DNA of 18,448 bases from Spirochaetaceae bacterium (GTDB lineage: Bacteria; Spirochaetota; Spirochaetia; Treponematales; Breznakiellaceae). Position 1 is the stretch's first letter. Every line of letters starts with the position of its first letter. The position numbers and the translations under genes are program-made. The notes under the pieces are model-generated. The model did no database searches, was not told the origin of the DNA, and worked only from the letters and a program-made list of their open reading frames with translations. This document shows positions 3,112 to 18,446 of the stretch, piece after piece. The DNA lies in contig JAISOO010000117.1 in assembly GCA_031275595.1 (NCBI GenBank), forward strand, positions 1 to 18,448, written 5' to 3'.

Positions 3112-3130
3112 AAAAGCGGCCTTCAGGGCC
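3110..3130 (-). terminator. compact intrinsic terminator overlapping the hflX stop
   Basis: Read on the minus strand, GGCC-CTGAA-GGCC (3130 to 3118) forms a short GC stem whose loop contains most of the hflX stop codon. It is followed by GC and six T (3115-3110), which enter the stop codon of the convergent ATPase gene. The stem is only 4 bp, so efficiency is uncertain. No U-tract follows it in the plus direction. Confidence 0.4.
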
Positions 3131-4397
3131 CCTGCGGCGGCAGGGTAAAGTCCCGTAATTTTTCCAAAAGCGGCCCCCCCACCCGGGCTTCCATCTCGAT
3201 ACCGGCGTCTTCATATTTTTCCGAAAGTACCCGGCCGTCCCGGTGAAGCAGGGCCGCCAGATCGTAGCGGTCCCGGGGAAAACGGAACCGGGAGACGGAA
3301 CCGGATACCAAGAGCCGCAGCCGCCGGGTAAGTTCTTCCAGGCCCTGGCCGGTCCGGGCGGAAACCGGAACCCCGCCGGCATACCGCTCCGGGAGCCGCG
3401 TACCGGCGGGATCCGCCCGGTCGATCTTGTTCAGGGCCGTTATCATGGGTTTTTTGTCCGCCCCCAGGTCCCGGAGGACCTCCATGGTGGTGTCAAAATA
3501 GTGTTCGGCGTCGGGATCGGAGACATCCACCACATGGATAAGCAGGTCCGCCAGGGCCGCTTCTTCCAGGGTGGCCCGAAAGGCGTCCACCAGATTATGG
3601 GGAAGCCGGCGGATAAAGCCCACGGTATCGATCAGCATGACGGGCTGCCCCTTGCCCGGCAGCCGCCGGGCCGTCGGGTCCAGGGTGGCAAAGAGCTTGT
3701 CCTCCGCCAAAACGCCGGCCCCGGTCAGGGCGTTAAGGAGGGAGGATTTCCCCGAATTGGTGTACCCCACCAGGGCGCAGGAGAAAAGAGTTTTCCCCCG
3801 CTTTTTCCGCTGCACCCCCCGGTGCTTGCGGACCTCCTCCAGTTCCTCCCGGAGCTTGTGGATCCGCCCCTCAATGATACGCCGGTCGGTCTCGAACCGG
3901 GTTTCCCCGGCGCCCCTGGTCCCGTAACTCCCCCCCCGCTGCCGGGACAGGTCGATGTACCGGTGGTTCAGCCGGGGCAGGGCATAGGAAAGCTCCGCCA
4001 ATTCCACCTGGAGGGCGGCTTCTTTTGTTTTCGCCCGCTCCGCGAAGATCCGGATGATAAGCTCCTGCCGGTCTATCACGGGGATCCCCGCGAGGGCTTC
4101 CCAATTCCGCTGCTGGGAAGGGCTGGGTTCCCAGTCCAGGATCAGGCAATCCGCCCCCAGGGCCCCGGCCTTTTCCCCAAGTTCCCGGGCTTTTCCCGTA
4201 CCCGTCCCAAACCGGGACCGGGGCTCCCGGAGGCGGACCGTCTCCTGGGCGGCGATTTCCACCCCCAGGGATTCGGCCAGGCCCCGGAATTCCCCGGACC
4301 GGGATTCCGCCTCCCGGTCCGGGGTCCCTTCCTCCCGCATGGTGATTAAAAATGCCCGCTTCGGTTTTTCCGTGGTGTCGCAGCGTAGTGTTTTCAT
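3123..4397 (-). CDS. hflX: HflX-type ribosome-associated GTPase
   Basis: GTPase of the HflX family, which binds the 50S subunit and splits stalled ribosomes under stress. The N-terminal HflX domain shows the glycine-rich FGTGTGKARELGE and the conserved SPSQQRNWE, followed by the linker motif GxGETxFExDRR near residue 162-174. The G domain has GYTNSGKSSLLNAL (from about 211), DTVGFIRRLPH (257 onward) and NKID (323-326). The product is 424 residues, typical of the family, with a C-terminal domain ending at 3123. The frame is open 16 codons further upstream to 4445, but that extension is translated from a palindromic repeat, so the ATG at 4397 is preferred. Its likely Shine-Dalgarno GGAAGG lies in the 3' arm of that repeat's stem-loop. 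It is convergent with the EF-G/ATPase pair, which also concerns ribosome function, so the neighbourhood is loosely translation-related. Confidence 0.93.
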   Translation of the reverse strand: MKTLRCDTTEKPKRAFLITMREEGTPDREAESRSGEFRGLAESLGVEIAAQETVRLREPRSRFGTGTGKARELGEKAGALGADCLILDWEPSPSQQRNWEALAGIPVIDRQELIIRIFAERAKTKEAALQVELAELSYALPRLNHRYIDLSRQRGGSYGTRGAGETRFETDRRIIEGRIHKLREELEEVRKHRGVQRKKRGKTLFSCALVGYTNSGKSSLLNALTGAGVLAEDKLFATLDPTARRLPGKGQPVMLIDTVGFIRRLPHNLVDAFRATLEEAALADLLIHVVDVSDPDAEHYFDTTMEVLRDLGADKKPMITALNKIDRADPAGTRLPERYAGGVPVSARTGQGLEELTRRLRLLVSGSVSRFRFPRDRYDLAALLHRDGRVLSEKYEDAGIEMEARVGGPLLEKLRDFTLPPQGP

Positions 4398-4404
4398 ATA
4401 AAAA

Positions 4405-4443
4405 GAGCCTTCCACAAACCTAACCGGGTTTGGTAAAAGGCTC
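4405..4443 (-). repeat. solo copy of repeat stem-loop 1 in the hflX leader
   Basis: A 39-bp imperfect palindrome with arms beginning GAGCCTT and ending AAGGCTC and the central core AACCCGGTT. Read on the minus strand it matches stem-loop 1 of the full repeat at 16637-16675 at about 34 of 39 positions, including an off-palindrome GTGG in the 3' arm. It is inverted relative to the other copies. Stem-loops 2 and 3 are absent; the hflX start codon lies where stem-loop 2 would begin. Confidence 0.75.
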
Positions 4444-4530
4444 AAGGGGGCTGTTCGGCAGCCTCGGCCTCCGGGCCGGTCCGGTGATTTTTCAAAGCGG
4501 CCTGCCCCGCCGGGATTTTGGGGCTCCCGG

Positions 4531-4644
4531 GCATTTCCTAAAACCCGGTTGGTTTTAGGAAATGCTCTTGAAAAAGCGGTCTAAAGCCCGCTTTTTCCCA
4601 TAAATCCAAGGCTGCTTTCCCAAAAACTGAAGTTTTGGGAAAGC
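4531..4644 (+). repeat. composite three-stem-loop repeat, full copy 1
   Basis: Stem-loop 1 at 4531-4565 has a perfect 15-bp stem and loop CGGTT. Stem-loop 2 at 4570-4597 has GAAAAAGCGG pairing with CCGCTTTTTC and an 8-nt loop. A linker with ATAAATCCAAGG follows, then stem-loop 3 at 4614-4644, with GCTTTCCCAAAA pairing with TTTTGGGAAAGC around ACTGAAG. Order, spacing and linker are shared with the copies at 16637 and 18331. Base changes in stem-loop 1 are compensated on both arms, as expected for selection on, or copying through, a folded form. Confidence 0.9.
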
Positions 4645-16636: not shown

Positions 16637-16754
16637 GAGCCTTTCCCAAAACCCGGTTGGTTTTGTGGAAGGCTCTTGAAAAAACGGTCTGAAGCCCGTT
16701 TTTTCCCATAAATCCAAGGAGGCTTTCCAAAAGCTGAAGTTTTGAAACAGTCTC
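16637..16754 (+). repeat. composite three-stem-loop repeat, full copy 2
   Basis: Stem-loop 1 at 16637-16675 has arms pairing at 15 of 17 positions around CGGTT. Stem-loop 2 at 16678-16705 has GAAAAAACGG pairing with CCGTTTTTTC around an 8-nt loop. The linker has ATAAATCCAAGG. Stem-loop 3 (from 16721) has the core CCAAAAGCTGAAGTTTTG but a decayed right arm. Same order and orientation as the copies at 4531 and 18331. It lies between the response regulator and the secreted nuclease. Confidence 0.88.
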
Positions 16755-16816
16755 AGGTAACATTGCCGCGGCTTGGTCCACTTTTCTTTTTCGGTATCTT
16801 CCGGCATACTGATTCC

Positions 16817-17563
16817 ATGGCTAAAAGATTTTCCACCCCCGGTTTGGCGCTTTTCTTTTTGCTGTCCGTTTTGGCGGTGTGCCGGGGCGCGGACGCGGAT
16901 ACGACGGTGTATGTTACCAACACGGGCAGGCGGTATCACCGGGAGAACTGTGCTTCCCTGCGCCGTTCCCGTATCCCCATAAGCCTGGGGGAAGCGGTCC
17001 GGTCCGGGTATGGACCCTGTTCCATCTGCAAGCCCGCCGGTCTTTCCGAAAACGCCCTGGTCCCCGGGGAAAGCAGGCCGCCCCTGTACCGGGTAAACAC
17101 GGCGGGGCTTGCCCTTTCCGCGGAGGCGGCGCTGCCCCGGATGGTTCCGGCGGAGGTGATAGATCACGTGGACGGGGATACGGTACGGGTGCGGATCCCC
17201 CATGCCCCGGAGCAGGTGGGAGCGGTAGAGACTATCCGGCTCATCGGGGTTGATACCCCGGAGACGGTTCACCCGTCCAGGCCGGTGGAACGTTTCGGCC
17301 GGGAGGCCAGCGATTTTACCCGGCGCGGGCTTTTGGGCAAGTCCGTGTACCTGGCCTTTGATTGGGACCTGCGGGATCGTTACGGCCGGCTTTTGGCCTA
17401 TATCTACACCGGGGAGGGCCGCTGTTTCAACGCCCTCATTATCCGGGAGGGTTACGGTTTTGCCTATACCCGGTTCCCCTTTCAATTTATGGAAGAATTC
17501 CGCAGTCTGGAACAGGAGGCCCGCGCTGAAAAGCGGGGCCTCTGGAATGACGATTCGTTGTGA
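16817..17563 (+). CDS. secreted thermonuclease-like (SNase) protein with N-terminal Cys/His domain
   Basis: A 248-residue protein starting MAKRFSTPG with a signal peptide (hydrophobic core LALFFLLSVLAV, possible cleavage after ADA at 25-27). Residues about 31-74 form a small Cys/His module, VYVTNTGRRYHRENCASLRR through GYGPCSICKP (His41, Cys45, Cys68, Cys71), probably metal-binding. Residues about 110-245 are a staphylococcal-nuclease domain: DGDTVRV (Asp119, Asp121), IRLIGVDTPE (Arg141, Asp146, Glu149) and DRYGRLLAYIY (Arg191), so the Arg/Glu/Arg catalytic set and the calcium-site acids are present. It should cleave DNA/RNA outside the cytoplasm. The open frame extends 25 codons upstream to a TTG inside repeat copy 2, but only the ATG at 16817 gives a signal peptide; the ribosome-binding site is weak. 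It is flanked by repeat copies 2 and 3 and convergent with the RAYT-like gene. Confidence 0.88.
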   Translation: MAKRFSTPGLALFFLLSVLAVCRGADADTTVYVTNTGRRYHRENCASLRRSRIPISLGEAVRSGYGPCSICKPAGLSENALVPGESRPPLYRVNTAGLALSAEAALPRMVPAEVIDHVDGDTVRVRIPHAPEQVGAVETIRLIGVDTPETVHPSRPVERFGREASDFTRRGLLGKSVYLAFDWDLRDRYGRLLAYIYTGEGRCFNALIIREGYGFAYTRFPFQFMEEFRSLEQEARAEKRGLWNDDSL

Positions 17564-17802
17564 AGGGTTGATACTCCGCCGGATGCGCCTGAAGGATGAC
17601 AGCCGCGGAGATAGGGGAATTGTTCGTGAGGGCGGGGCTTCGGTTCGTCCCGGCTGTATGGGGGTAAGCGGCTGTCCGCGTGGGCTCAATTTGGCCCGTG
17701 GCGCAGGGGTTTTGTCTGTCCGGGGCGGATCTGTCCCTGTGGGCGTCTTCGGTTGGGACAGTAAGGGCGGCTGGCGCAGGGACCGGGGCGGGTTTCCGGG
17801 TT

Positions 17803-18312
17803 TTAGCCGGGCGCGCGGGGCAAATGGAGGGGAAAATTGGGGGGAAAAGCGGGGTTGGCGGCCGATTTCCCACTTTGGGGCCTGACCCCATAGCTCCAAA
17901 CCCCGCCGCCCCAGGCCGCCTTCTCTTCTCCAGCCGGCACTTCCTCCGCCAACTCAGGCTCCCCGTCCAGAATCCGCGACCAATACCGGTCCCCCCAGAT
18001 GTGCCCGATCCGTCCGTCCAGCCGGTTGTACCGCTGGGCAAAGGTCTGCTTCAGCCACTGCATGATCGCCGGAAGTTCCAGCCCGTCCGCCGGCTTAATA
18101 TAAAACCTCACCCAGTCATCCTCAAGGCGCAGCCCCCGAATCTCGAAATCGAACCGGCTCTTGGTTTCGCGGAACACCCCGGCAAAAAGCGCCAGGGCCT
18201 TAAACCGGCGGAAGAGCGGTTCCCGGTTGTTGATACGGGTACGGATATCGTACCACACCCCTTGTTTCAGCATTCGTAATGATCTCATACAAGATATATG
18301 CGCTTGACTCAT
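17803..18312 (-). CDS. degenerate REP-associated tyrosine transposase (RAYT/Y1_Tnp)-like protein lacking catalytic residues
   Basis: A 169-residue protein. Its first ~115 residues follow the RAYT/IS200-like pattern: GVWYDIRTRINNREPLF (18-34) resembles the family's WYHVT-R-N-R-E--F start, and MQWLKQTFAQRYN (84-96) with GRIGHIWGDRYWS (100-112) matches the conserved helix and GHLFQGRYK-type motif. The HUH position, NHxHLLL in the family, reads DDWVRFYI, with Trp67 and Arg69 replacing both histidines. The family's later helix YIxxNPVRAGLV, carrying the catalytic Tyr, is absent; an unrelated Gly/Pro-rich tail of about 50 residues follows. The other minus-strand frames do not restore it. It is probably catalytically dead: either a decayed transposase or a domesticated DNA-binding protein. 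The start is uncertain (Met at 18312, 18288 or 18273; no clear Shine-Dalgarno). Composite repeat copy 3 begins 18 bp upstream. Confidence 0.7.
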   Translation of the reverse strand: MSQAHISCMRSLRMLKQGVWYDIRTRINNREPLFRRFKALALFAGVFRETKSRFDFEIRGLRLEDDWVRFYIKPADGLELPAIMQWLKQTFAQRYNRLDGRIGHIWGDRYWSRILDGEPELAEEVPAGEEKAAWGGGVWSYGVRPQSGKSAANPAFPPNFPLHLPRAPG

Positions 18313-18330
18313 CGTTTTGCTTTAATGAGA

Positions 18331-18446
18331 GAGCCTTTCCCAAAACCCGGTTGGTTTCGGGAAAGGCTTTGGAAAAAACGGCCCAAAGCCCGTTTTTTCC
18401 TCTAAATCTAAGGTTGCTTTCCCAAAAGCTGAAGTTTTGGGAAAGC
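18331..18446 (+). repeat. composite three-stem-loop repeat, full copy 3, upstream of the RAYT-like gene
   Basis: Stem-loop 1 at 18331-18369 has near-perfect 17-bp arms around CGGTT. Stem-loop 2 at 18371-18400 has GGAAAAAACGG pairing with CCGTTTTTTCC. The linker is CTAAATCTAAGG. Stem-loop 3 at 18416-18446 has a perfect 12-bp stem around GCTGAAG. It has the same orientation as copies 1 and 2, so copies 2 and 3 are direct repeats bracketing 16755-18330. The copy may continue beyond the window end. Confidence 0.9.

Follow-up and report, generated by a model that had tools for sequence, protein, structure and literature searches.

TIR-associated tyrosine transposases with GGGGWSAS inverted repeats have been described under the names TIRYT and TIRtron (PMC3733652), and TIRYTs were likened to subclass 2.1 in a broad survey of TnpA-Y1 proteins (PMC6006769). 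In RAYT subclass 2.4 of the same survey a REP is inserted within the gene while the reading frame is kept, and the class 2 RAYTs have means of 1.0-3.9 copies per genome (its Table 1). Sequences without the core motifs were set aside there as suggesting non-functional proteins. Mobile insertion cassettes consist of MITE-like ends around a gene that does not encode a transposase (PMC5444012). In the IS4 family, the ISPepr1 subgroup has YT-AA-YTT ends, a length of 1500-1600 bp and duplications of 7-8 bp, and the IS50 subgroup has a length of 1350-1550 bp and duplications of 8-9 bp (PMC2266710).

The window (the whole stretch of 18,448 nucleotides that was analysed) contains close to its end a RAYT/TIRYT-like gene that lacks the catalytic residues. 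Its lineage resembles the TIRYTs in having a Y1 fold, a sequence, GGGGTCAG, that fits GGGGWSAS, a palindrome in or near the gene, and a dispersed palindrome family. However, the TIRYTs aligned in PMC3733652 all keep HUH and Tyr, whereas this lineage has neither; it also reaches a far higher copy number, and many of its copies are surrounded by a pair of IS4-type ends. With the RAYT/TnpA-REP proteins of the E. coli type it has in common the core fold, a GHxWGxR-type motif and, as in subclass 2.4, a repeat within the gene that leaves the frame open; the differences are the absence of HUH and of the Tyr helix and copy numbers that contrast with the class 2 means. The closest known type of element is the mobile insertion cassette, which likewise has IS-like inverted ends, one passenger gene and no transposase (PMC5444012). 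Here, in contrast, the passenger is a catalytically dead transposase whose dozens of copies are under selection. Full-text searches of a limited collection listed no paper that describes, in its title or at the beginning of its abstract, a selected RAYT lineage without HUH.

The gene and its lineage

The following features define the gene:

17803..18288, minus strand: RAYT/TIRYT-like ORF without HUH and Tyr, 161 codons from the start conserved in the family, plus the stop codon
18106..18114, minus strand: W-V-R codons in place of the HUH histidines (H-x-H), located by alignment with intact kin
17803..17960 (start approximate), minus strand: Gly/Pro-rich C-terminal tail ending in P-G, which takes the place of the Tyr helix and has low model confidence

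The stop codon occupies 17803-17805 and the conserved ATG 18288-18286. An alternative ATG upstream, at 18312, would give 169 residues in place of the 161 that begin with the conserved MRxLR. The ORF matches the Pfam family Y1_Tnp (PF01797) with an E-value of 4.8e-8 and 33.6 bits, above the cut-off of 23, and scores 36.1 bits with the NCBIfam model REP_Tyr_transpos, below its cut-off of 80. GRIGHIWGDRYW is kept in the protein and is followed by the low-complexity tail, which lacks a Tyr helix.

An AlphaFold (AF2) model was built on the window protein in its database form (P0001, 156 residues) from a 28-row alignment. The core is a beta-alpha-beta-beta-alpha-beta fold with pLDDT values, by blocks, of 71-87; from residue 109 onward the pLDDT is below 50, and the overall mean is just 66.4. 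With an E-value of 2.2e-5 and 15% identity, the top PDB match of the model is 4er8, a complex of a RAYT with its REP hairpin. All 29 PDB matches at E <= 0.001 are Y1 transposases, apart from two designed ferredoxin-like proteins. The Y1 (IS200-like) core fold of the RAYTs is thus present according to profile, model and PDB match; the HUH motif and the catalytic Tyr (YIxxNP helix) of RAYTs and TIRYTs are absent from the lineage. By the features tested the window protein is neither a RAYT nor a TIRYT, though its binding mode may resemble theirs.

The window protein has 1705 homologues at E <= 0.001 in a protein search. Among the best 120 of these the Tyr motif is found in none and the sole HxH falls outside the site; the usual residue at the position of the first histidine is W, and at least 106 of the 120 end in P-G. 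In reference genomes 339 relatives were found, and 79 loci (L001-L079) were kept; their source MAGs carry the title Spirochaetaceae bacterium or Treponema sp. and are presumably of termite-gut origin. No viral relative was found, nine IMG/VR stretches fitting a pattern and none being a relative.

When the fetched loci were grouped by their best-matching query, all 174 distinct relatives lacked both HUH and the Tyr pattern. A sister group of 28 comprised 26 genes with HUH and Tyr, one with HUH only, and one fragment with Tyr only. An earlier grouping on fewer loci gave the same split. The Tyr pattern did match 12 HUH-less rows, 11 of them by chance outside the place of the Tyr; the remaining row is a fragmentary copy of an intact gene. 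Across the 82 rows of an alignment, His occupies both HUH columns in 26/26 sister rows, but the first column in only 1/56 and the second in 0/55 of the HUH-less rows. The HUH-less rows (the window gene and 55 chosen at random) form one side of a single branch with a support of 100/100, and the same branch is recovered with an SH-aLRT of 100 upon removal of the HUH columns. Labels in the tree were assigned from the HUH pattern itself; the grouping by best query is independent of them. Because the tree is unrooted, a single loss of HUH and of the Tyr helix is the simplest history of the lineage and not a proven one. The HUH-less cores have a Tyr at FYIKP in 154/164 cases and at GDRY in 164/164; intact kin that were sampled have other residues at the former place and mostly Phe at the latter.

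The HUH-less lineage is under purifying selection, with dN/dS of about 0.2, also between nearest paralogues. Pairwise NG86 medians for the cores, in five bins of rising dS, were 0.22, 0.18, 0.20, 0.17 and 0.14, as calculated from 108 of 121 HUH-less ORFs whose pairs are not independent of one another. Pooled over nearest-neighbour paralogues, dN/dS was 0.20 in G259 (24 copies) and 0.25 in G112 (25 copies), two genomes with separate expansions of HUH-less copies. Dead gene copies would be expected to show values near 1. Internal stops occur in just a few of the listed matches of the family.

PF01797 matches in 13 genomes numbered 35, 29, 10, 5, 47, 18, 25, 9, 2, 17, 3, 2 and 2 (35 being in G001, 29 in G002 and 47 in G005), counts that include some intact or broken kin. 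Three further genomes had at least 150 (G112, 150 of 178 candidates scored), 83 (G259) and 33 (G298) matches; in G112 and G259 the presence or absence of HUH was checked in about 25 copies per genome. As the genomes are mostly fragmented MAGs, copy counts may include effects of strain mixture or assembly. HUH-less copies outnumber better-scoring intact relatives in most genomes of the set of 13. They are the best-scoring Y1_Tnp matches in six genomes of this set; in G002, a seventh, the top match is a broken piece of IS200 type. A survey of the order to which G001 belongs found a match at E <= 0.001 in 119/390 genomes, many of the matches being weak and, where read, of the intact sister kind. 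The sister genes with HUH are numerous as well, with 27-90 matches per genome in G173, G181, G310, G175, G075 and G040, far above the class 2 means quoted above (PMC6006769). The sister loci that were read, three per genome (L271-L276, L280-L285, L289-L294), all have HUH, and 17/18 have the Tyr.

The preliminary description, made from the window alone, had noted a RAYT-like ORF in which W-V-R occupies the HUH site and a Gly/Pro tail replaces the Tyr helix, and all of this was found as described. It had suggested a structural comparison with Y1 transposases, the outcome of which is the match to a RAYT-REP complex. Paralogues sharing the loss of HUH and Tyr under purifying selection, on which it had proposed to rely, do exist.

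Cassette ends and tail palindrome

Two further features of the window copy are compared below with those of its relatives:

17685..17697, minus strand: candidate decayed 3' terminal repeat, GGGCCAAATTGAG (GGGTCAAGTTTAG in relatives), putatively assigned from a match by eye
17876..17890, minus strand: palindrome TGGGGTCAGGCCCCA, in-frame G-V-R-P in the tail (GGGTCAGACCC in relatives)

Many copies in related genomes are situated in cassettes of about 700 bp with CTAAACTTGACCC inverted repeats at their ends, and the flanks of many copies terminate at CTAAACTTGACCC and GGGTCAAGTTTAG. The terminal 13-mer is found in 12 of 13 genomes, with up to 59 occurrences in each; its reversed control occurs once in all genomes together. 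Elements bounded by a pair of the 13-mer measure 90-380 bp where the gene is absent and about 670-920 bp where it is present; one is 1469 bp long. The loci L001-L079 had been fetched solely by protein similarity. Of their 59 HUH-less ORFs with long flanks, 42 have one or both CTAAACTTGACCC ends, 19 have both, and 17 have neither at two mismatches. The random expectation is about 3% per end (2000 random stretches). A larger count of 85, in a sample that includes loci fetched via the 13-mer, gave both ends in 28, at least one in 55 and none in 30. Inverted ends in common with an autonomous insertion sequence, a feature of mobile insertion cassettes, are a property of the relatives and not of the window copy. 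At the latter there is no intact terminal repeat, and the candidate decayed 3' repeat is located about 105-118 nt past the stop codon.

At 11 of 44 end pairs (one pair sharing its right end with another, in L180) there are target duplications of 8-10 bp that contain no more than one mismatch; shuffled pairings gave a mean of 0.71 and a maximum of 5. Of these 11 pairs seven enclose a HUH-less gene, three no gene and one an intact gene, and no clear duplication was found at the other 33. Seven of the 44 pairs have duplications of exactly 8 bp, compared with a mean of 0.43 and a maximum of 4 in shuffles; 8 bp is also the length at which the direct-repeat signal is strongest. Duplications of 8-10 bp are expected of a DDE and not of a Y1 transposase.

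The 1469-bp element has the same ends as the cassettes and contains an open frame of 479 residues, measured from stop to stop. This frame encodes a transposase of the IS4 family (score 340.7 bits, cut-off 160) with a Tn5-type DNA-binding domain, a DDE domain and a dimerisation domain. Relatives of this transposase occur in 15 of 18 searched genomes, many of them as fragments, and several abut the 13-mer, on contigs G010:C58, G010:C41, G002:C50 and G006:C158. The element, a putative autonomous partner of the cassettes, resembles the subgroups ISPepr1 and IS50 in its transposase, 5'-CT ends and length of about 1.5 kb, a tentative placement by likeness of features. Ends, size and duplication length (8-10 bp here, 7-9 bp for ISPepr1 and IS50 in PMC2266710) are similar to the published ones without being identical.

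An IS630-type insertion at a TA target, to which the CTA...TAG ends had pointed, was rejected on account of the IS4-family partner and the peak at 8 bp. Insertion into hairpins was also rejected, the complementarity of the flanks being 5.36 vs a mean of 5.04 and a maximum of 5.70 for shuffles. A hairpin-like flank, AACCTCCCCGCC...GGCGGGGAGGTT, recurs directly outside several cassettes (L227, L092 and others).

Because three HUH-bearing sister copies of G075 (L271, L289 and L280, the last without a recognisable Tyr) are situated within CTAAACTTGACCC elements, the association with these ends may be older than the loss of HUH, or may have arisen twice. A distant HUH-less clade (L204, L206, L229), the most amplified one (G112, G259), has apparent GAGCCTGTTCCAAAAC inverted ends, which suggests that the type of end has changed. 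Since the ends seem to differ in this clade and G112 has only 5 palindromes, neither the IS4-type ends nor the palindrome would appear to be required for amplification.

Taken alone, the window palindrome is unremarkable: its loose pattern is found in 70/200 shuffled windows, and its fold has a z-score of -1.15. In the lineage, GGGTCAGACCC, with at most one mismatch, occurs in a single reading frame in 104/109 tails, one to three times in each, within the tail ORF; the GGGGWSAS inverted repeats described for TIRYTs flank the gene. The core in most tails is GTCAGAC. Since the Arg codon of the palindrome is AGA in 127/162 cases vs 142/1812 in the core of the protein, the palindrome seems to be conserved as DNA, beyond the peptide, with shared descent inflating the signal. 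It is probably inherited from a TIRYT-like ancestor, because GGGGTCAG fits the motif given in PMC3733652. A full-text literature search for GGGGTCAGACCCC did not find it in print.

Exact copies of GGGTCAGACCC number 209, 137, 230, 93 and 73 in five of the 13 genomes and 3-37 in the other eight, compared with 0-3 for reversed controls; they are partly arranged in tandem arrays. Palindrome number and gene number are correlated across the 13 genomes (Spearman 0.88, or 0.73 after subtraction of 1.3 palindromes per gene), both values being inflated by the relatedness of the genomes. In the order survey at least 10 palindromes were found in 11/24 genomes with a strong match, 8/95 with a weak match and 4/271 without a match, so that weak-match genomes also exceed those without a match; the 24, tallied by eye, exclude G314, whose match has stops. 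The link is not exclusive: G047 has 143 palindromes and no family match, and G112 has 5 palindromes vs 150 gene matches.

Some of the G003 copies and one G007 copy have GGGGTCAGACCTC upstream, which the window copy lacks. In L011 (489-981), L018, L024 and others, 17 places in all, an in-frame palindrome such as GGGACCGGCGCCGCGGCGCCGGTCCC directly follows NNREPLFR, and the same search found none away from NNREPLFR in the 79 loci. In L221-L224 and L227, tandem units bearing GGGTCAGACCC lie outside the gene, some of which look like reiterated tail sequence.

Role of the protein

We favour, with a probability of roughly 0.55, the reading that the gene encodes a non-catalytic, hairpin-binding descendant of a RAYT or TIRYT that has spread as a mobile insertion cassette. 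The window gene would be one copy of a cassette of about 700 bp that encodes no transposase itself. In related genomes the inverted ends of this cassette are those of an insertion sequence of the IS4 family (ISPepr1/IS50-like), whose DDE transposase most likely mobilises it in trans. Descended from a HUH/Tyr transposase of the RAYT/TIRYT kind, the gene would have lost the tyrosine helix and the two histidines, by the simplest account only once, and would then have been kept by selection. The function is probably one of binding without cutting, since paralogues share the catalytic loss and stay under purifying selection. Because the fold matches a hairpin complex and the core is conserved, the protein may still bind folded single-stranded hairpins, for example the palindrome, in its own DNA or mRNA, and leave them uncut. 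Such binding could serve the element by controlling its own expression, by protecting it or by helping the borrowed transposase; the benefit would be to the element and not to the host. The window copy would be an older or damaged member of the family, with ends that have decayed or been replaced. A broader version, which we hold only tentatively, is that the protein is a putative non-catalytic hairpin-binding factor selected for its effect on cassettes whose ends come from IS families that differ between lineages, and that it might guide or protect the cassette for a borrowed DDE transposase.

Mobilisation in trans by intact RAYT or TIRYT enzymes acting on the palindromes, with the HUH-less copies as parasites or dominant-negative binders, is unlikely. 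The high copy number of the sister genes in six genomes, the three HUH-bearing copies within CTAAACTTGACCC elements of G075, the GTCAGAC-core palindromes readable in L289 and the fit of GGGGTCAG to the TIRYT motif (PMC3733652) all argue for it, but the target duplications are DDE-like, the best of the listed Y1_Tnp matches in 6/13 genomes are HUH-less (the MAGs may be incomplete), and the best match in G002 is broken. We also consider it improbable that the protein has acquired a new activity, its newly conserved residues, such as the tyrosines of FYIKP and GDRY, forming another active site or binding RNA or a host factor. The near-invariance of these tyrosines, the strong selection on the core and the common P-G ending are consistent with such an activity; however, the tyrosine pattern would also fit residues that took over a structural role once the metal site had been lost.

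The preliminary description had offered two explanations, a domesticated, binding-only RAYT and a relic. Domestication by the host would explain why the catalytic residues are lost while selection is purifying, but it is very unlikely: related genomes do not have a low-copy gene at a fixed locus, and the dozens to more than 100 scattered copies per genome, many in inverted-repeat cassettes and some with target duplications, are those of a mobile element and leave the claim unsupported. Least probable of all is a decaying relic. The ends of the window copy are damaged, and this copy taken alone could be dead, but the dN/dS of about 0.2 and the open frames, with few stops among the listed copies, contradict decay for the family. 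Intact HUH/Tyr relatives exist as the sister group, and the window copy is no lone relic but a member of a selected family.

The lineage is thus one without core motifs, of the kind set aside in the survey cited above, that is under selection. If binding is confirmed, the binding role of a RAYT would have been separated from cutting, and the lineage would offer a natural, binding-only test of the effect of REP-type recognition on the cell or the element, and an example of a selfish gene persisting on the borrowed ends of another family. Should the tentative reading as a hairpin-binding factor be true, a transposase fold that gave up cutting would have become the most successful gene of the element.

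The 114-nt hairpin repeat and neighbouring genes

A repeat of 114 nt is present in the window in three copies, to which no strand is assigned:

18333..18446: three-hairpin repeat in the 5' flank of the gene, reference copy; the window ends two bases further
16639..16752: second copy, away from the gene
4531..4644: third copy, away from the gene

The other two copies are 77% and 86% identical to the reference. A fold of 116 nt has three hairpins at -43 kcal/mol with a z-score of -9.2, and none of 200 shuffles was as good. Relatives of the repeat are dispersed over the loci from related genomes, and their distance to the gene often amounts to kilobases. A hairpin arm is found within 250 nt upstream of 24/140 HUH-less ORFs (the window gene excluded) vs 38/3000 random stretches; these 24 are distributed as 13/18 in G259, 4/19 in G112 and 7/103 elsewhere. 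On the 3' side an arm accompanies 8/143 HUH-less ORFs. No GTAG/GTGG foot was seen by eye at the window hairpins or the palindrome.

The 114-nt element is a separate, dispersed hairpin family that is weakly tied to the gene. The preliminary description had taken it for the gene's own REP-like repeat: it does adjoin the gene, but it is not the gene's own, and its dispersed relatives and weak association, mostly in G259, do not support a specific cognate REP. The preferential association that had been anticipated is seen weakly, as an excess over random stretches to which one genome contributes 13 of the 24 cases. A better candidate for a repeat belonging to the gene is the GGGTCAGACCC palindrome of the tail. 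The 114-nt repeat occupies the site where many relatives bear the 5' terminal repeat; as judged from this position, the cassette's 5' end has been replaced by it at the window copy.

A copy of the hairpin repeat, at 4405-4442, overlaps the 5' end of a GTPase-like ORF (3123-4445, minus strand), presumably HflX-like; owing to this overlap the true start of the ORF is probably further in than the mechanical call. Adjoining the RAYT-like gene, 16742-17563 encodes a staphylococcal-nuclease-like protein (PF00565) with an extra N-terminal stretch bearing Cys and His.
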